Below the pieces are notes generated by a model that saw only the letters and a program-made list of their open reading frames with translations, was not told where the DNA came from and made no database searches. From positions 1-41,147 of the forward strand of contig CACYTI010000019.1 in assembly GCA_902777275.1 (NCBI GenBank): 41,147 bases of DNA. Direction: 5' to 3'. Shown piece by piece: positions 10,559-41,147 of this stretch (the first letter of the stretch is position 1; every line of letters starts with the position of its first letter). The stretch is from an uncultured Ruminococcus sp. (GTDB lineage: Bacteria > Bacillota > Clostridia > Oscillospirales > Acutalibacteraceae). Position numbers and translations under genes: made by a program.

Positions 10559-12193
10559 TTATTCTGTAGCAACAGGCTCCTTGCCCTTGCTTACTATTAA
10601 AGTGATGTTGGTGCCGTATTCAACGGTTTCGCCCTTGCTCTTATCCTTGTAGCCCACAACGATGCCCTCGGCGTATTTGTCGTTGTAGACATATTCCGCA
10701 GTGCCGAGCAAACCCTGAGCCGCAATTATCTCCGAAGCTTTCTCAAGCGTCTGTCCTTCGATTTCGGGAAGCTCGCGCATCTGCTTGCCCTTGCTCACAG
10801 TAAGGCTGATCAACACGCCGCCTTCTGTATCGGTAGCTGTCACCCTCGCTCCGGCGGGCGGGTTTTGCATCATTACATGACCCTCTTCATACTCCTCGCT
10901 GTATTCGTCGGCATAGTTTCTTAATAATTTGATTGAAGGGTCATTCTCGGCGGCTTTGACCGCTTCCTCGTAGGTCAAGCCCATATAATTCGGAACCGTC
11001 GCGCCCGTCCACTCGGTGCTTTCGGTCGTATCCTGAGTAGGCGCGACATTACTGCCGAACATTGACGCGAACGGATTCTGCATAAGCCAGAACGCTCCCA
11101 CAATTCCCAAAACAAGAACCGTTATCGCCGCGGCAATAATTGAAACAGACGCCGGAGACATTCCGCTTTTTGTTTTATTCTTGCCCGACGCGTTTGAAAG
11201 ATTCATGCTTGCCGTGCGGGAAATTTCGTCCTGAATGGCTTTCGCGGTGTGAGCCACGGAAAGCTGCGAGCGAAGGTCGTCAAAATTAGTGATACGGTTC
11301 TCGCGCTCAACCTGCAGGCCGTTGGCAAGAGCCGACACAACATGAGGCGGAAGCCTCTTGACCGTGTTAGTGCTCATAAGCAGGCGGCTGTCCTTCAAGC
11401 GCTCGGGCGCGCTCTTAGGCTGACGGCCTGTCAGCGCGTAAAACAGCGTTGCGCAGATGCCGTAGATATCGGTGATATCGTCGAGCGGGAAATTGTCCTC
11501 GTACTGCTCGGGGGCAGCCGCTCCGGAAAAGAGCTGAGATTTAAGCGGCGTGCCGCGCTTGCGCTCGTTCTCGGTGGCAAAACCCGAAATCTTGATTTTT
11601 CCCTGAGATGTGATGTACATATTTTTGGGAGAAATCGCGTAATGACCCACTCCGCGCTTATGAAGAGCCTCAAGAGCGGAAATCACGGGCATAAACAACG
11701 GACGAGCGATATCCCACTCAAGGCTGCCGCCGCTGCGCTCAACGTATTCCTCAAACGGAATCAGGTCTTCGTCTTCCTCGATGACATAGGCGGTGTTGTT
11801 CTCTTCAAAAATATTATGCACATTCAGAAGCGCGGAAAGATCGCGCAGCTCGGACAAAATGCGATAATAGCTTATGAATTCGTCCTTGATTTTTTTAAAC
11901 GCAAGACGGTTTTCATAATTGATTTTTAATTCGGTTTCGTCCTCGGCACGGGTGAACAGACCCATCGGCAAAAACTCACATACGATAATAACATCGCCTG
12001 TCTGCTTGTCATAGCCGATGTAACGGGTGCTTTCGCCGTTTGCGTCTATTCCCGCGCCGACAATGTAGCGGTTCGCAAGTACCGTGCCGTAGGGCAAAAA
12101 CGGCGCCTGCTGCTTTTCGGTATTGTCAAATCCGCAGGACGGGCAAATTTTATTGTTGCCTATCTGCTGCATACAACCCATACATAATGGCAT
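10559..12193 (-). CDS. Zinc-ribbon PASTA-domain pseudokinase (Ser/Thr kinase fold, catalytic residues lost)
   Basis: A 544-residue membrane protein. In order: an N-terminal zinc ribbon (Cys4, Cys7, Cys17, Cys20), a protein kinase fold (about 35-310), one membrane segment (349-371) and two PASTA repeats (about 400-471 and 472-540) facing outside. The layout matches a clostridial zinc-ribbon kinase family, but the catalytic residues are absent: the ATP-binding Lys of VAIK is Cys72 (VIIVCEFLP), HRD is HYA at 184-186, and the DFG Asp is missing (KISGFA at 201-206). The APE-like region (APEQYED) and the helical lobe remain, so the fold is probably kept for scaffolding or sensing. Start follows GGAG. 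Its promoter is at 12338-12367. It may partner the active PknB encoded nearby. Confidence 0.88.
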   Translation of the reverse strand: MPLCMGCMQQIGNNKICPSCGFDNTEKQQAPFLPYGTVLANRYIVGAGIDANGESTRYIGYDKQTGDVIIVCEFLPMGLFTRAEDETELKINYENRLAFKKIKDEFISYYRILSELRDLSALLNVHNIFEENNTAYVIEEDEDLIPFEEYVERSGGSLEWDIARPLFMPVISALEALHKRGVGHYAISPKNMYITSQGKIKISGFATENERKRGTPLKSQLFSGAAAPEQYEDNFPLDDITDIYGICATLFYALTGRQPKSAPERLKDSRLLMSTNTVKRLPPHVVSALANGLQVERENRITNFDDLRSQLSVAHTAKAIQDEISRTASMNLSNASGKNKTKSGMSPASVSIIAAAITVLVLGIVGAFWLMQNPFASMFGSNVAPTQDTTESTEWTGATVPNYMGLTYEEAVKAAENDPSIKLLRNYADEYSEEYEEGHVMMQNPPAGARVTATDTEGGVLISLTVSKGKQMRELPEIEGQTLEKASEIIAAQGLLGTAEYVYNDKYAEGIVVGYKDKSKGETVEYGTNITLIVSKGKEPVATE

Positions 12194-12337: not shown

Positions 12338-12367
12338 ATTATATCATATGTAACACATTCATTTCAA
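12338..12367 (-). promoter_or_regulatory. Promoter of the pseudokinase gene
   Basis: On the minus strand TTGAAA (12362-12367) and TATAAT (12338-12343) are 18 bases apart. The leader is about 140 bases. No terminator is visible between this site and the cotH stop at 12423, so read-through from the upstream operon is possible. Confidence 0.7.
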
Positions 12368-12422
12368 GATTATTGTCTGTTTTTTTTAATTACAGTTTTG
12401 TTATATGATAAAACGTCCTGTT

Positions 12423-13949
12423 TTACGCCGCGACAGTTTCACCTATTCCGTATTCGTTGCCGAACTCGGCAAGGTACCTCTGGAGCGCGGTCGCATCGTC
12501 AACGGACAATCCGTTTCCGTCAACATCGGCGCGCAAAATCATTTCCTCTCTGTCGGGAACCTCTACCTGCTCGGCAAGCACACGCTGAACATAGGTAGCG
12601 TCGTTCACGTCGACCTTGCCGTTTCCGTCCGCATCGCCGCGGATGTACTCGCGCTCAAAAAGTCGGTAGTATTCCGTGAGCCAATCGTTGCGCTGCACGC
12701 ACCAGCTCTTAAAAAACTCAAAATTCTGCTCATAGGTGCCAAGGGGCCTCATCTGAATGTTTATCCACCACCTGGATACTCTCCAGCCCGCCTCATTGAA
12801 GTTGCGCGCGAAAACGTCGGAGTACTGCGCAAGTGCGCTGTCAAGCACGCCGCCGTCGGCGCCGATATTGCTGAAATAGCCGTGATGCTCGCGGTAAACC
12901 GACTTAACCTCTTCGGTGAACCAGTCGTAAACGCAGAGATAGCGGAAAATGTTTTTCTTTTTGCAGAAAATACCCTCGGGATTATGCGTGCCCTCGCCGC
13001 GAGAGGAATACTCCGGGTTGCCGTTGCCGCTGCTGAGGTCGTAATCCCACGGCGGTCCCGCGTAGAGCTTGCCGTCCTTGTAGTAGAAGAAAACAGAGGT
13101 AACGTCAAAATCGAAGGTTTTAAAAAATTCGTTGAGCAGGTAGAACTTCGCGAAGGAAGGCACATCTATCTTTTCCGCGATTTGCTCCTGCGTGCCTTTT
13201 CTTATCGTGGTCACGATATCCTGCATGGTTTCGGTCATATAAGCTAACTGTTCCTCGTTGGGCTCCTCCGGCTCGCTGCACATAAATCTTAAGCCGTCAA
13301 CAGTCAAGTAGGTTTTGTCATCCTCAACACGCTTCGACTCGTACTCAAGCAAAAAGTCCTTTTTGCCGTCGTTGCTTTCAATGTCGATATCAACTCTGTC
13401 CTTGCCCTCCTGAACAGGCTCAAACAGCATATAGCAGCCGCGGAAGGAGCCATCCATCCACATTTCGACGATTTTAAAATCGGAGGTATATTCGAGACCG
13501 AGCTCTCTGCCCAGCGAAAACGCGAGATAATTACGGAGCAGGGTGGGGTCAAAAACGTTGGCTACAAGCGCCCATTTTTTGCCCTTGCCCATTCCGAGGA
13601 CGTCCTGCTTCTTGGAAAACTTAAAATTGAAGCCTTTCTTGGTGATCCAGCTCAGCGCGGTCGTGTTGCCTCTTACCTTAATGGTACAGTCGTCTTCAAG
13701 AACGGTTCCGTCAGTATCGGTTATTGAAATTGAGGCGTTCTGATATCCGTCTTCCTTTTGAAGCTCGTTGCCGTTTCCGTTTTCGGTCGTTATACGGATC
13801 TGCGGAACCGTCATCTCCCAATCGCTGCTCGCGGCAGGAGCCTCATCAGCAGCAAATGCCGCGAAGCCCGACGAGCACACACACGAAGCAATGACGGCTA
13901 AGCAGGTAAAAGCCGCTAAAATACCTCTGAAATATGATTTTTTTCGCAT
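12423..13949 (-). CDS. Secreted CotH-family protein kinase with C-terminal dockerin
   Basis: CotH proteins are atypical secreted kinases, first known from spore coats; dockerin-bearing versions occur in ruminococcal cellulosome systems. The 508-residue protein has a signal peptide (about 1-33), then CotH motifs: IKVRGNTT, KKGFNFKFSKK, KKWALVANVFDPTLLRN, YLAFSLGRELGL, MDGSFRGCYMLFEPVQEG and the metal-binding PPWDYDLSSGN. Residues 437-508 form a dockerin with repeats DADGNGKVDVNDATYVQRVL and ADVDGNGLSVDDATALQRYL; both keep the calcium ligands. The gene starts 32 bases after thiN, with GGAG before the ATG, so it may be the last gene of the housekeeping operon. What it phosphorylates is unknown. 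Confidence 0.88.
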   Translation of the reverse strand: MRKKSYFRGILAAFTCLAVIASCVCSSGFAAFAADEAPAASSDWEMTVPQIRITTENGNGNELQKEDGYQNASISITDTDGTVLEDDCTIKVRGNTTALSWITKKGFNFKFSKKQDVLGMGKGKKWALVANVFDPTLLRNYLAFSLGRELGLEYTSDFKIVEMWMDGSFRGCYMLFEPVQEGKDRVDIDIESNDGKKDFLLEYESKRVEDDKTYLTVDGLRFMCSEPEEPNEEQLAYMTETMQDIVTTIRKGTQEQIAEKIDVPSFAKFYLLNEFFKTFDFDVTSVFFYYKDGKLYAGPPWDYDLSSGNGNPEYSSRGEGTHNPEGIFCKKKNIFRYLCVYDWFTEEVKSVYREHHGYFSNIGADGGVLDSALAQYSDVFARNFNEAGWRVSRWWINIQMRPLGTYEQNFEFFKSWCVQRNDWLTEYYRLFEREYIRGDADGNGKVDVNDATYVQRVLAEQVEVPDREEMILRADVDGNGLSVDDATALQRYLAEFGNEYGIGETVAA

Positions 13950-15505: not shown

Positions 15506-17611
15506 TCAATAGCCTAAATCAGGGTCGTAGTAGTCTGTGTTGTCCTCAACGGGCTCCGTAGGATCTGTCGGGATAATATAGTCGGTAGTCGTCTCCTCGC
15601 TCGGCATAGGCTCTGTCGGAGCCGTAGTGGGCGGGATATACTCATGCGTTACGGTGCTGACGGAACCCGTGTTGAAATCGATCGTATATTCGCGGTAAAC
15701 CTGACCGTCAAGCTGGACAACGACGTTTTTGGTACCTGTACCGTCAAATTCAAGAGTTGCGGTCGCGCCGTAAGCCGGATAAACCGTCTTGGACTTCTCC
15801 CCGTCGATAACTCCGTCAACAGTAACGGTCATTTCAACCTTTTCAACGTTTGTGGGCAAATCAACGTTGATCGTCACCTTGCTCTTGTCGCCCACGCCCG
15901 AGCTGACGATAAGCGTCACCACGGTGCCGGACTCGACCTTGCCGTGAGGCAGCGGAGAAGAGCCGATAACAATGTCGCGCTTTGCCGTGCTTTCGTCGTC
16001 GTAAGCGGTTTCAATGGTTATATTAAGCTCCTGAAGAGCTGCCTGCGCTTCTTCAAGCGTCAAGCCGATAACCGCCGGGATCTCGACGGTTCCGGGGCGC
16101 GCTCCGTTTGAAACGTAAACATAGACGGTGGAGCCTATAGTCGCCTTGGAACCCGCCGACGGAAATGTTCCCATAACATAATCCTTGGCTACCTTGTCGC
16201 TTTCGACAAGCACTATCTCGGGAATGAGGTTGATATCCTTTATAGCACTTACCGCTTCATCCTGCTTCTGATTTGATGTGAAGAAAGGCACTGATATTTC
16301 GTCCTCGTTGCTGTTAACGGTAAGCACTATCGTAGAACCGGTTTTGACCTTCATAGAACCCGCCTCGGGCTCCTGGGCAAGAACGACACCAAGCGACTGT
16401 GTCTCGTCATAACGGCTTTTCAACTCAAACTGGAAGTTGTCGGGATTGTGTTCCTTCGCTTCAATAAACGACTTGCCTACATACTGAGGCACGTCTACAT
16501 CCTTGTTCTGACCCGAGGTGATTCCTCTGACCAGCGCCAAAACAAAGAAAATCAGACATACGGCTACAGCGGCTATAAGAATTCCCTTTATAGCGTAGAA
16601 CGCGCCGCTGTGCTCTTTATATTCCTCTTCGTCAATCTCTTTTTCCCTTTTTTGCCTTTCCGGCTTTTTCGCTACAGCTTGCTGACGTTTGACCGGTTTT
16701 TCTGTCTTGTTCTTTTTCATCTGCTCCACGTGCTTGGTGGGCTGATCGTCAACAAAGGACGTGCCGTAATCAAAAACAATGGAAGGATTCAGGCGGAAGC
16801 GCTCAAAATCGCTGAGCATCTCCGCTGCGGAGGTGTAGCGTCTTTCGGGCTCCTTTTCCATGGCGCGCATCGTGATCTGCTCAAGACCGACGGGAATGGA
16901 TGGATTGACCTCGCGCGGTCGCTTCGGCGTTGACTGAAGCTGCATAAGCGCGACGGTCACGGCGCTGTCGCCCTCAAACGGCAATCTGCCCGTGAGCATT
17001 TCATACAGCATCACGCCAACCGAGTAAATATCGGTTTTGCCGTCGGTCACGTCGCCTCTCGCCTGCTCGGGCGCGATATAGTGGACCGATCCGATAGCCT
17101 GGTCTGTCATGGTGCGTGTAGCCTTGTCCGAAAAACGCGCTATGCCGAAGTCGGTCACTTTGATCGTGCCGTCCTGAAGCAGCATTATATTCTGCGGCTT
17201 GATATCCCTGTGAACAATGCCGCTCTCGTGCGCGTGCTGCAGGGCGCGGAGCACCTGAGTCGTGAGGTGGAGAACATCCTTCCACTCGATCACGCCCTGA
17301 CGGTCAATGTACTCCTTGAGAGTAATGCCGTCGATATATTCCATGACGATATATTGTATCATGTCGCCAAAGCTCACATCGTACACCTTTACGATGTTGG
17401 GGTGTGAGAGCATGGCGATCGCCTTTGACTCGTTTTTAAATCGGCGGATAAACTCCTCGTTGTTGAGGTATTCATCCTTTAATATTTTAATGGCAACCTC
17501 ACGGTCATCCAGCGTGTCGGTGCAGCGGTAAACGTTCGCCATTCCGCCTACGCCGATTAGCTCGTGGATTTCATAACGACCGTCAAGCCGCTTGCCCAGA
17601 TATTTATCCAT
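15506..17611 (-). CDS. PASTA-domain Ser/Thr protein kinase (PknB/PrkC/Stk1 family)
   Basis: Membrane kinase that senses muropeptides or lipid II through PASTA repeats and controls cell wall and growth in other Firmicutes. The 701-residue protein has an intact kinase domain: glycine loop GVGGMANVY, Lys42, Glu61, HRD Asp136, Asn141 and DFG Asp154, then GSVHYIAPEQ. After a Lys-rich linker comes one membrane segment (AIKGILIAAVAVCLIFFVLA), then at least three PASTA repeats (VPQYVGKSF, VPFFTSNQK, IPAVIGLTL starts) and a Thr/Pro/Glu-rich tail. I use the ATG eight bases after AAGGAG; a GTG three codons earlier overlaps that site and cannot be used. It follows its PP2C phosphatase gene by 65 bases. 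Confidence 0.95.
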   Translation of the reverse strand: MDKYLGKRLDGRYEIHELIGVGGMANVYRCTDTLDDREVAIKILKDEYLNNEEFIRRFKNESKAIAMLSHPNIVKVYDVSFGDMIQYIVMEYIDGITLKEYIDRQGVIEWKDVLHLTTQVLRALQHAHESGIVHRDIKPQNIMLLQDGTIKVTDFGIARFSDKATRTMTDQAIGSVHYIAPEQARGDVTDGKTDIYSVGVMLYEMLTGRLPFEGDSAVTVALMQLQSTPKRPREVNPSIPVGLEQITMRAMEKEPERRYTSAAEMLSDFERFRLNPSIVFDYGTSFVDDQPTKHVEQMKKNKTEKPVKRQQAVAKKPERQKREKEIDEEEYKEHSGAFYAIKGILIAAVAVCLIFFVLALVRGITSGQNKDVDVPQYVGKSFIEAKEHNPDNFQFELKSRYDETQSLGVVLAQEPEAGSMKVKTGSTIVLTVNSNEDEISVPFFTSNQKQDEAVSAIKDINLIPEIVLVESDKVAKDYVMGTFPSAGSKATIGSTVYVYVSNGARPGTVEIPAVIGLTLEEAQAALQELNITIETAYDDESTAKRDIVIGSSPLPHGKVESGTVVTLIVSSGVGDKSKVTINVDLPTNVEKVEMTVTVDGVIDGEKSKTVYPAYGATATLEFDGTGTKNVVVQLDGQVYREYTIDFNTGSVSTVTHEYIPPTTAPTEPMPSEETTTDYIIPTDPTEPVEDNTDYYDPDLGY

Positions 17612-17676
17612 ATGAGCCACTCCTTTTTACTATGTGGGAATTGATTGATTTACCTTGCGCGGTTAGCGCACGGAGG

Positions 17677-18402
17677 TCAGTAAATTACCGTGGCGGTAAT
17701 GTTGTCGGTGCCGCCGCCCGCCTTGGCGCAGTCGATAAGTTTGTTAATAAGACTGTCGCCGCGGTTCTCATGGCATATTTTTACCATATCTCCGGTCGTA
17801 ATGTGGTTGGACAAACCGTCGCTGCAAATAAGCAGCACGTCGCCGTAGATAAAATTAGCCTCGATATAATCAAGCCGCACGGTGGTTTTTATGCCGAGCG
17901 CACGGGTGATGAAATTCTTGTTCGGGTGGTGCTGCGCCTCATCATATGTAAGCTCTCCCCTGCGAACCATCTCCTGAACAACGGAATGATCCTCTGTGAG
18001 CTGCTTGATTTTTCCTCCGCGAATAGCATAGGTGCGGCTGTCGCCGACGTGCACAACATGGACCGTGGTGTCCTTTACAAACACAAATTCGCACGTTGTG
18101 CCCATGCCCGCAAGCTCAGGGTCGCGCAGCGCCAAATCAAATATTTTGGAATTGGCGTTCACCACTATCTCCGCCATTAGCTCACCTATCTGCTCCTTTG
18201 TCATGTCGCTTTTGTATAAATCGGTTATTTTTTTGCTGATATAATCAACAGCAGTTGCGCTGGCTATATTGCCGCCGTTAGCGCCGCCCATTCCGTCGCA
18301 CACAACCGCCCATACGCAGCACGGAGAAATAATGCCGAAGCGGAAGTCGTCCTGATTCTGTTTACGCACCAACCCCACATCACTCTTGCTGAAAACTTCC
18401 AA
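17677..18402 (-). CDS. PP2C-family Ser/Thr protein phosphatase (PrpC/Stp-like)
   Basis: Metal-dependent phosphatase that should reverse the action of the neighbouring PASTA kinase. Motifs in order: DVGLVRKQNQDD (8-19), VVCDGMGG with metal-binding Asp36, GTT, HVGDSRTY, LTEDHSVV, ITRALG, CSDGLSN and GGGTDNIT, so both metal centres are intact. I start it at a TTG (MEVFSKSD...) because AAGGAGG lies eight bases upstream and the family starts at this point; the alternative ATG at 18426 has no good binding site and would overlap rlmN by 23 bases. This gives 241 residues. The TTG lies one base after the rlmN stop. Confidence 0.93.
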   Translation of the reverse strand: MEVFSKSDVGLVRKQNQDDFRFGIISPCCVWAVVCDGMGGANGGNIASATAVDYISKKITDLYKSDMTKEQIGELMAEIVVNANSKIFDLALRDPELAGMGTTCEFVFVKDTTVHVVHVGDSRTYAIRGGKIKQLTEDHSVVQEMVRRGELTYDEAQHHPNKNFITRALGIKTTVRLDYIEANFIYGDVLLICSDGLSNHITTGDMVKICHENRGDSLINKLIDCAKAGGGTDNITATVIY

Positions 18403-18403
18403 T

Positions 18404-19438
18404 TCATTTTCCTCCTTCTCTAACATATTTTCTTTTCAACTGACCGCAGGAAGCGTCGATATCGCTGCCCAGCGTCCGTCTGACTGTTGCCGTTACCCCA
18501 TAACCGGCAAGTATATCGGCAAAAGACTTTTGTCTTTGTATATTGCTCTTTTTATAACCCGTTCCCTCAACCGGATTGACGGGAATCAAATTTACGTGGC
18601 AGTTCATGCCCTTCAGCTTTTTGCCCAGCTCACGGGCACAGCCGTCGCTGTCGTTCACTCCGCTTATAAGCGCGTACTCAAACGTCACCCTTCTGCCTGT
18701 CAGCTTAAAGTAATCGCGGCAGGCACGCAAAAGCTCTTCCATAGGATACGCTTTTGCCACAGGCATGGTGCGGACGCGGATCTCATCGTTCGGAGCATGA
18801 AGTGAAACCGCAAGGTTTATTTGCAGCTTTAGCTTAGCAAGCTCGTAAATTTTCGGAACGATGCCGCAGGTGGATACAGTTATCCTTCGCGCGCCGATGT
18901 GCAGACCCTTTTCATCGCCCGCAAGCTCAATGAACCTGAGAACATTGTCGAGGTTGTCGAGAGGCTCGCCCATTCCCATAAGCACCACGTTTGAAACGCG
19001 GATATCCATATCCCGCTGAGCGGATTCGATCTGCGCAAGCATTTCCGACGCCGTCAAACTTCGCGAAAAGCCGCTTTTGCCCGTAGCGCAGAACGTGCAG
19101 CCCATTTTGCAGCCCGCCTGAGTTGAGATACATTCCGTCCAGCCGTGGCGGTAACTCATAAGAACAGACTCCACACATTCGCCGTCTTCAAACGAAAAAA
19201 GATACTTCACTGTTTTATCATACCTTGAAACCAGTTTTTTTTCAATAATTGCAACAGAAATGTAACAACTTGTTTTTAAAAAATCTTTCAATTGTGACGG
19301 AAGATTGGTCATTTCGTCAAAAGACGATACTCCCCTGCCCAGCCACTCGTGCACCTGAGAGGCGCGGAAGGAAGGATAATCGTTTTGGGTCAGGAACACC
19401 CGCAATTCGGGCAGAGTCATAGATTTTATATCAAGCAT
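18404..19438 (-). CDS. rlmN: 23S rRNA A2503 / tRNA A37 C2-methyltransferase RlmN
   Basis: Radical SAM enzyme that methylates A2503 of 23S rRNA and A37 of some tRNAs. The radical SAM cysteines are Cys110, Cys114 and Cys117 (CKMGCTFC), the SAM-binding GMGEPLDN follows, and the C-terminal catalytic Cys is Cys331 in ASCGQLK. The start MLDIKSM gives 344 residues, the usual size; GGGAGG is 14 bases upstream, a rather long spacing, and there is no better ATG. The gene lies 28 bases after rsmB and its stop is one base from the PP2C start. Confidence 0.95.
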   Translation of the reverse strand: MLDIKSMTLPELRVFLTQNDYPSFRASQVHEWLGRGVSSFDEMTNLPSQLKDFLKTSCYISVAIIEKKLVSRYDKTVKYLFSFEDGECVESVLMSYRHGWTECISTQAGCKMGCTFCATGKSGFSRSLTASEMLAQIESAQRDMDIRVSNVVLMGMGEPLDNLDNVLRFIELAGDEKGLHIGARRITVSTCGIVPKIYELAKLKLQINLAVSLHAPNDEIRVRTMPVAKAYPMEELLRACRDYFKLTGRRVTFEYALISGVNDSDGCARELGKKLKGMNCHVNLIPVNPVEGTGYKKSNIQRQKSFADILAGYGVTATVRRTLGSDIDASCGQLKRKYVREGGK

Positions 19439-28724: not shown

Positions 28725-28754
28725 AATTATTACAACATTGTAACCTTAGGTTTG

Positions 28755-36661: not shown

Positions 36662-36856
36662 GAGTATTTTTGTAGAAATTGCCGTAAAAAAATACAAGAT
36701 TTATTATTGCGCGGGAAATAGTTACATTTTTGTAATTTATTGTTTTTTTAAGCGTATTTATTGCGTATTAATTGTAAAAAAATGGTAAAAATTGTTTATT
36801 TTATTACAGTACCGGATTGAGCTTTATTTTAACTTTGTTTCTTTTCAGAAAGATTT

Positions 36857-40955: not shown

Positions 40956-41147
40956 ATCGAGTAGGGCGGAATAACTCCGCCCTCTCACACCACCGTACGT
41001 GCCGTTCGGCATACGGCGGTCCAATTCAATTTCAAAGTATGCTGTCTGAGATAGTAATCTAATGGACTGACCAAGCCTCGCTTGGTCAGTTTCTCTTTGC
41101 TGATTGCTTTCTTAATCTGTGGCAAGCATACGGCTTTCATATACCCT
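40956..41147 (-). mobile_element. Group II intron, 3' end (domains V and VI plus end of the maturase gene)
   Basis: Reading the minus strand from the window edge: the end of the intron protein, then domain V (40989-41020: ACCGCCGTA-TGCC-GAAC-GGCA-CG bulge-TACGGTGGT, the two-base bulge and tetraloop layout is exact), then domain VI (stem AGGGCGGA/TCCGCCCT at 40963-40983) and the usual 3' end CTACTCGAT. The 3' boundary is put at 40956. The intron lies on the strand opposite to the recombinase stub and ends 21 bases past its stop. The rest lies beyond the window. Confidence 0.85.
40985..41147 (-). CDS. ltrA: Group II intron reverse transcriptase/maturase, C-terminal end (partial)
   Basis: Only the last 53 residues are in the window: they include GYMKAVCLPQIKKAISKEKL, GLVSPLDYYL and a tail that runs through domain V to a TGA at 40985-40987. 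The GL(V/I)S..DYY ending, directly upstream of domain V, is that of intron-encoded proteins, and the frame is open to the window edge. The true stop could be earlier in other family members; the start lies outside. Confidence 0.65.
   Translation of the reverse strand, partial: GYMKAVCLPQIKKAISKEKLTKRGLVSPLDYYLRQHTLKLNWTAVCRTARTVV

Follow-up and report, generated by a model that had tools for sequence, protein, structure and literature searches.

The window, by which we mean the whole 41,147-nucleotide stretch of DNA analysed here (GenBank assembly GCA_902777275.1, contig CACYTI010000019.1, from an uncultured Ruminococcus sp.), carries on its reverse strand the gene for a 544-residue protein that we call PSK, for PASTA receptor pseudokinase. 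The protein has an N-terminal zinc ribbon, a kinase domain, a membrane helix and two PASTA repeats, and its Pfam families are kinase and PASTA only. A pseudokinase is defined as a kinase fold from which at least one of the VAIK Lys, the HRD Asp and the DFG Asp has been lost. PSK falls within this definition: as the original prediction from the sequence had it, all three landmarks are replaced (Cys72, HYA and GFA), and the alphaC Glu and the Gly-loop prove to be lost as well. The ribbon, the predicted kinase fold, the membrane segment and the two repeats that it described are likewise borne out, as is an active PASTA kinase (PknB) with its phosphatase nearby. That PSK is a conserved PASTA receptor pseudokinase is well supported.

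The coordinates are collected in Table 1. The membrane segment has a Kyte-Doolittle hydropathy peak of 2.64 (19 residues from 350), and the PASTA repeats come after it, as in the PASTA kinases Stk1 and PknB. The full-length predicted model also places a helix there, and because its predicted local distance difference test score (pLDDT) is only 66.5, the cytosolic part was folded separately. The closest solved structure is PpkA (5hnv), which has an HRD-type catalytic loop in the alignment where PSK has HYA.

Table 1. The PSK gene, its protein features and its surroundings (window coordinates; minus is the reverse strand)
Feature	Position	Strand	Basis or conservation
PSK, PASTA receptor pseudokinase, 544 aa	10559..12193	-	orthologues across the genus
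Zinc ribbon Cys4/7/17/20 (CxxC/CxxC), N-terminal in PSK	12134..12184	-	conserved in the genus
Dead kinase domain of PSK, residues about 40-314	11252..12076	-	
Cys72 at the VAIK Lys (beta-3) position	11978..11980	-	counts at genus loci
Tyr109 at the alphaC Glu position	11867..11869	-	alignment
HYA (184-186) replacing HRD	11636..11644	-	80/80 genus loci
GFA (204-206) replacing DFG	11576..11584	-	no Asp204 in 80 genus loci
Activation segment ERKRGTxLKSQL[FY]SGxAAPEQY, with Thr215, near-invariant	11501..11575	-	alignments
Membrane helix, residues 347-371	11081..11155	-	hydropathy and full-length model
PASTA repeat 1	10829..10999	-	37.4 bits
PASTA repeat 2	10586..10774	-	35 bits
Promoter-like TTGAAA-18-TATAAT, TG ahead of the second hexamer	12338..12367	-	scan and alignment
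Upstream box ATAACAAAACTGTAAT	12389..12404	-	conserved in the genus
CotH-dockerin gene (type I dockerin), between thiN and PSK	12423..13949	-	
PknB, active PASTA kinase, neighbour and candidate partner	15506..17620	-	
PrpC/Stp1-type phosphatase, neighbour	17677..18426	-	

The genus is the Ruminococcus bromii group, which includes ATCC 27255, 5AMG, YE282, FMBCY1 and many rumen and gut assemblies. An orthologue of PSK is present in all 35 other genus genomes, essentially whole in 31 and in pieces in four (G034, G014 and G026 with a split or partial copy, G011 with 82 residues at a contig edge). Residues were counted in the best 80 of 254 relatives. All of these 80 loci have HYA at the HRD position and Asn at position 191, and the matched frame runs unbroken in each, with no stop. 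Position 72 is Cys in 71, Ala in three, Arg in three and Thr in one, with two gaps, so that none of the 78 loci covering it has Lys; the DFG position reads GFA (62), GFS (6), GLA (5), GYA (3), GYS (2), CFA (1) or AFA (1), with Asp204 in none. The substitutions are common to the orthologues, and a search of the genus for close orthologues with intact Lys/Asp/Asp found none. What has been kept is equally regular. All four ribbon cysteines are present in 77/77 covering loci, and in 72/72 in a second residue count; Thr215 and Thr327 are invariant, the RKRGTxLKSQL part of the activation segment is nearly so, Tyr109 is invariant in alignment A2 and nearly invariant in A1, and Arg57 is nearly invariant in A2.

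Selection was estimated as the ratio of nonsynonymous to synonymous substitution rates (dN/dS) from 28 species pairs with dS of 0.1-1, pairs that are not mutually independent. The median for PSK is 0.039 over residues 30-330, 0.028 in the C-lobe and 0.103 in the PASTA part; the dead domain is under strong purifying selection. Recent decay of PSK is therefore rejected, since orthologues throughout the genus share the substitutions and dN/dS is low. A functionless, decaying relic is scarcely credible: the loss of every catalytic motif is what such a relic would show, but it is countered by dN/dS of 0.03-0.04, by matched stretches free of stops at all 80 genus loci, by invariant structural residues, by a conserved promoter box and by the age of the clade described below. 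With the catalytic parts lost and the remainder under strong selection, PSK probably signals through partner binding rather than phosphorylation.

To look beyond the genus, 394 genomes of the order were searched with a profile, with matches in the window's own genome, three more genus genomes, 39 genomes from other genera of the same family group (f1, which we take to be Acutalibacteraceae; the match in G192 is an edge piece only) and 41 genomes of a second family group, f26. Residues were counted in 65 of these homologues, 38 from f1 and 27 from f26; one active kinase (L202) was dropped, and L046 (genome G057 of family f23, with Lys kept, HRL and HGF) was kept out of the 65, yet lies within the clade. 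The HRD Asp, the alphaC Glu and the DFG Gly are present in 0/65, while the DFG Asp is found in 13/65 and the catalytic-loop Asn in 19/65. Structural positions are retained: APE Glu, alphaI Arg and HRD His in 65/65 and alphaF Asp in 63/65. Nine active kinases compared in the same way retain every counted catalytic and structural residue. Six additional f26 sequences likewise have no HRD Asp, which brings the f26 genomes read to 33/41. Position 72 is Arg in 43 of the 65 and the beta-3 Lys in 19 (one in f1, 18 in f26), so that catalytic loss looks stepwise, judging by these sequences, with Lys common in f26, mostly Arg in f1 and Cys in most of the genus.

These residues also bear on another explanation, in which PSK is a non-canonical enzyme or a nucleotide-gated switch, holding ATP through Arg57 or Arg/Lys72 and driving some other reaction or a conformational change. 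The prevalence of Arg or Lys at position 72 in other genera and the near invariance of Arg57 in alignment A2 fit this, and the beta-3 Cys has a parallel in WNK kinases, where, in the accessible text of PMC12599244, a Cys likewise replaces the beta-3 Lys and its role falls to a Lys in beta-2. We nevertheless consider it improbable, given the complete absence of HRD Asp and alphaC Glu in the 65 homologues and the scarcity of DFG Asp and catalytic-loop Asn; no other family-wide acidic set was noticed, although no systematic search for one was made.

The tree was built by a quick method from 97 of 115 rows, with branch support from the Shimodaira-Hasegawa-like approximate likelihood ratio test (SH-aLRT) only; of the 18 rows outside it, one duplicates the window protein and the other 17 are phylum hits that are interrupted or of PknB type. 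In it, 73 pseudokinases, including the one from G057, form a single clade (support 100) separate from active zinc-ribbon kinases and from PknB. The f1 rows form a sub-clade (support 98), and the branching order among the zinc-ribbon groups is left unsettled. One row labelled PSK by pattern, L254, has VAIK, HRD and DFG and falls outside the clade. On this phylogeny PSK is an old family, its clade, from which the catalytic and metal-binding residues have gone, reaching at least two bacterial families, and the suggestion of a receptor pseudokinase rather than a strain-level accident stands. Among 398 genomes of the phylum, matches above 590 bits occur in three only (the window's own genome and sampled f1 and f26 members); of the 30 top-scoring loci, the other 27 have a DFG or a loop of the HRD or HCD type. 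L275 has two active zinc-ribbon kinases in long open frames (1238 and 1383 aa), with matches that span nearly the whole PSK profile.

PSK can be compared with several known systems. It shares a kinase fold, a single membrane helix and PASTA repeats with the PASTA kinases PknB, PrkC, StkP and Stk1 (NF033483). It scores 116.5 bits against that family's cut-off of 450, however, and differs in its altered VAIK, HRD and DFG, its N-terminal zinc ribbon and its branching with zinc-ribbon kinases. Clostridial zinc-ribbon Ser/Thr kinases, represented by active paralogues in the same genome, share the CxxC/CxxC ribbon and are the nearest kinase sequences to PSK, but retain the VAIK, HRD and DFG that PSK has lost.

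Published bacterial pseudokinases fall into seven families in the accessible text of PMC12599244, four of which were compared here by their described features, with ActPs1, ActPs2 and ActPs3 outside the comparison. As described there, DYD pseudokinases keep an HRD and/or DFG-type motif together with a DYD motif, DLHK pseudokinases keep the HRD Asp and have no membrane segment, GLW pseudokinases have GLW in place of HRD, and CP1 pseudokinases have no membrane segment and are linked to COG3899. PSK was rejected as a member of each: HYA and GFA in the window protein speak against DYD, HYA in 80/80 loci and the membrane helix against DLHK, HYA at the HRD position against GLW, and the membrane helix and the kinase-plus-PASTA Pfam content against CP1. 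In ActPs2 the HRD Asp is Asn, unlike the Ala or Gly of the PSK family. The mycobacterial MviN (ActPs3) resembles PSK in having a membrane pseudokinase domain, and is tied to peptidoglycan synthesis and PknB; its family is actinobacterial and has an activation-loop deletion, and PASTA repeats do not figure in its description in that text. EssB/YukC is, by description in the same source, a transmembrane pseudokinase of Firmicutes like PSK, but is a component of type VII secretion. CD2148 of Clostridioides difficile is described, in the accessible parts of PMC9674922 and PMC8262956, as a membrane Hanks-type protein lacking key residues, a possible pseudokinase that influences PrkC-dependent phosphorylation; it has no PASTA domains, unlike PSK, and the likeness is one of description. 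In the text of PMC12599244 accessible to us, the word PASTA occurs once, in the reference list. A PASTA pseudokinase is absent from the titles and abstract openings of the open-access matches listed, a scope outside which most subscription papers lie, and it is possible that members of the PSK group have been annotated as pseudokinases earlier.

Upstream, the median gap from PSK to the nearest open reading frame (ORF) of at least 120 codons is 262 nt (73 loci). The promoter-like site was the top match of the scan (11/12) and is aligned in 20 genus upstream regions. In a hand-chosen set, a tRNA-Ala gene stands no more than 300 nt ahead of PSK in 8/10 loci; thiN precedes in six of the eight, gave no match in L132 and is 4.4 kb away in L133. 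The box ATAACAAAAnTGTAAY, with at most one mismatch, occurs in 70/74 genus upstream regions as against 1/370 shuffles, and in 2/65 outside the genus. Its exact form is found in 51/80 genus genomes; by hand count, 20 of 25 exact boxes in the 36 genomes with the PSK position given stand just before PSK and five elsewhere. The window's own genome has one exact copy, and four with one mismatch allowed as against three for the reversed control. We take the box to resemble an 11-bp tandem site of the WalR/Pho type or a TTACA-N4-TGTAA dyad, which occurs 11 times in the same genome (control, 5). Related dyads lie at 28729-28744 (+), ahead of a yebC-type gene, and at 36721-36736 (-), ahead of a solute-binding protein gene. 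From these features PSK looks like a separate transcription unit with its own conserved promoter region in the genus.

The gene order in the genus is priA-def-fmt-...-rlmN-prpC-pknB-rsgA-thiN, followed by PSK. In 65 of the 71 loci with enough upstream sequence, PknB is encoded on the same strand no more than 6.5 kb upstream, and in 68 of the 71 thiN or rsgA lies just upstream; the CotH-dockerin gene intervenes between thiN and PSK in 11 of the 71, and in the window, which likewise speaks for a separate unit. Three of the six loci lacking PknB are on short contigs. Apart from the PSK locus, a match to a group II intron (Rfam RF00029, 46.7 bits) lies near the contig end, at 40956-41021 (-).

Wall sensing by Ser/Thr kinases in Gram-positive bacteria is chiefly the work of PASTA kinases, known for sampling cell-wall material with their PASTA repeats. 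PSK is very probably a genuine non-catalytic receptor. The explanation we favour, with about as much doubt as confidence, is a non-phosphorylating membrane receptor with an active Ser/Thr kinase of its own cell, PknB/PrkC first, as the likeliest client; the naming of PknB itself is more tentative. The two PASTA repeats would sample cell-wall material outside, and the dead kinase domain would bind a protein inside through its near-invariant activation segment and C-lobe. PSK might dimerise with the active kinase or compete for its ligand; alternatively, it might be phosphorylated by the client kinase at Thr215 and Thr327 and become a docking platform of the kind that MviN provides for PknB in mycobacteria, a type of scaffold defined by phosphorylation by PknB and recruitment of an FHA protein. 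Among the PASTA proteins of its own genome that were compared, the PSK PASTA pair is nearest to that of PknB (33.8% over 133 aa), and this resemblance, with the genus gene order, points first to a part for PSK around PknB as co-receptor, decoy or docking site, which is the leading inference. A modulating action on PknB or the divisome, as originally proposed, is plausible.

Several results weigh against the PknB-centred explanation. The PknB kinase domain is under tighter selection, with a median dN/dS of 0.012, and PSK is the lower in only 1/28 pairs. Three of the six PknB-less genus loci (L072, L077 and L105) have 5-10 kb of upstream sequence without PknB. Co-transcription of PSK with pknB is not indicated, given the gap, PSK's own promoter-like site and the tRNA-Ala. 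Outside the genus, 39/40 stretches (up to about 9 kb per side, shorter at contig ends) show no linkage of PSK to prpC-pknB; in the exception, L236 (f26 genome G405), some 3.5 kb separate PSK from priA-def-fmt downstream of it, so that it is linked to the cluster in a second, different way. When neighbours were compared across the 40 loci and the window genes by a longest-ORF rule, which missed PSK itself in three loci, no cluster other than PSK covered more than eight loci, and the seven annotated clusters outside the genus are housekeeping or helix-turn-helix (HTH) genes (YebC, prephenate dehydratase, IspD, an HTH protein, histidine phosphatase, aldolase and a glutamate-type dehydrogenase). 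Stray single matches are to Tex (L217) and g2866 (L223), with further weak ones to RsmB-like, g356-like, and GH3 or CotH genes in a few stretches.

A general partner of another kind, an FHA-SEDS protein, failed the co-occurrence check, which again weakens the case. Of the genus genomes searched, 21/22 have an FHA frame of about 425-603 aa, and two frames tested by Pfam contain FHA and FTSW_RODA_SPOVE (L301:1404-3113 (-) and L302:978-2663 (+)). Among 157 genomes of the order, f13, f14 and further families also have frames of 540-620 aa, and the matches listed include none of that size from f26; FHA-SEDS-sized frames do not track PSK, and so no general partner is indicated. In L302, an ORF with a transpeptidase domain adjoins the FHA-RodA/FtsW-type gene.

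The last adverse point is that the dead domain branches with zinc-ribbon kinases and not with PknB, which makes an active zinc-ribbon kinase a close rival client. As far as sequence can tell, the domain inside the cell descends from a zinc-ribbon kinase and the sensor is like PknB's. The client could then be a paralogous zinc-ribbon Ser/Thr kinase, and the adjacency to pknB, seen in the genus only, an accident of gene order. Eight rows from the genome are active zinc-ribbon kinases, and a PASTA repeat is present in one of them. We regard this main rival as rather unlikely, however, because the PASTA-bearing zinc-ribbon kinase is less like PSK in this part than PknB is, and because the genus keeps PSK downstream of pknB in 65/71 usable loci.

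How PASTA kinases are tuned is an open question, and R. bromii-type bacteria matter for starch breakdown in the gut. Returning to PSK as a receptor that acts on an active kinase, dead PASTA receptors may, though we propose it with some reserve, give two families of gut Clostridia a second input for wall sensing, one that is ancient and vertically inherited. Serving as decoy, co-receptor or docking platform, it would regulate PASTA-kinase signalling without phosphorylation. The same kind of sensor on a dead kinase would be a natural separation of sensing from phosphotransfer, and PSK gives binding and deletion experiments something concrete to aim at.
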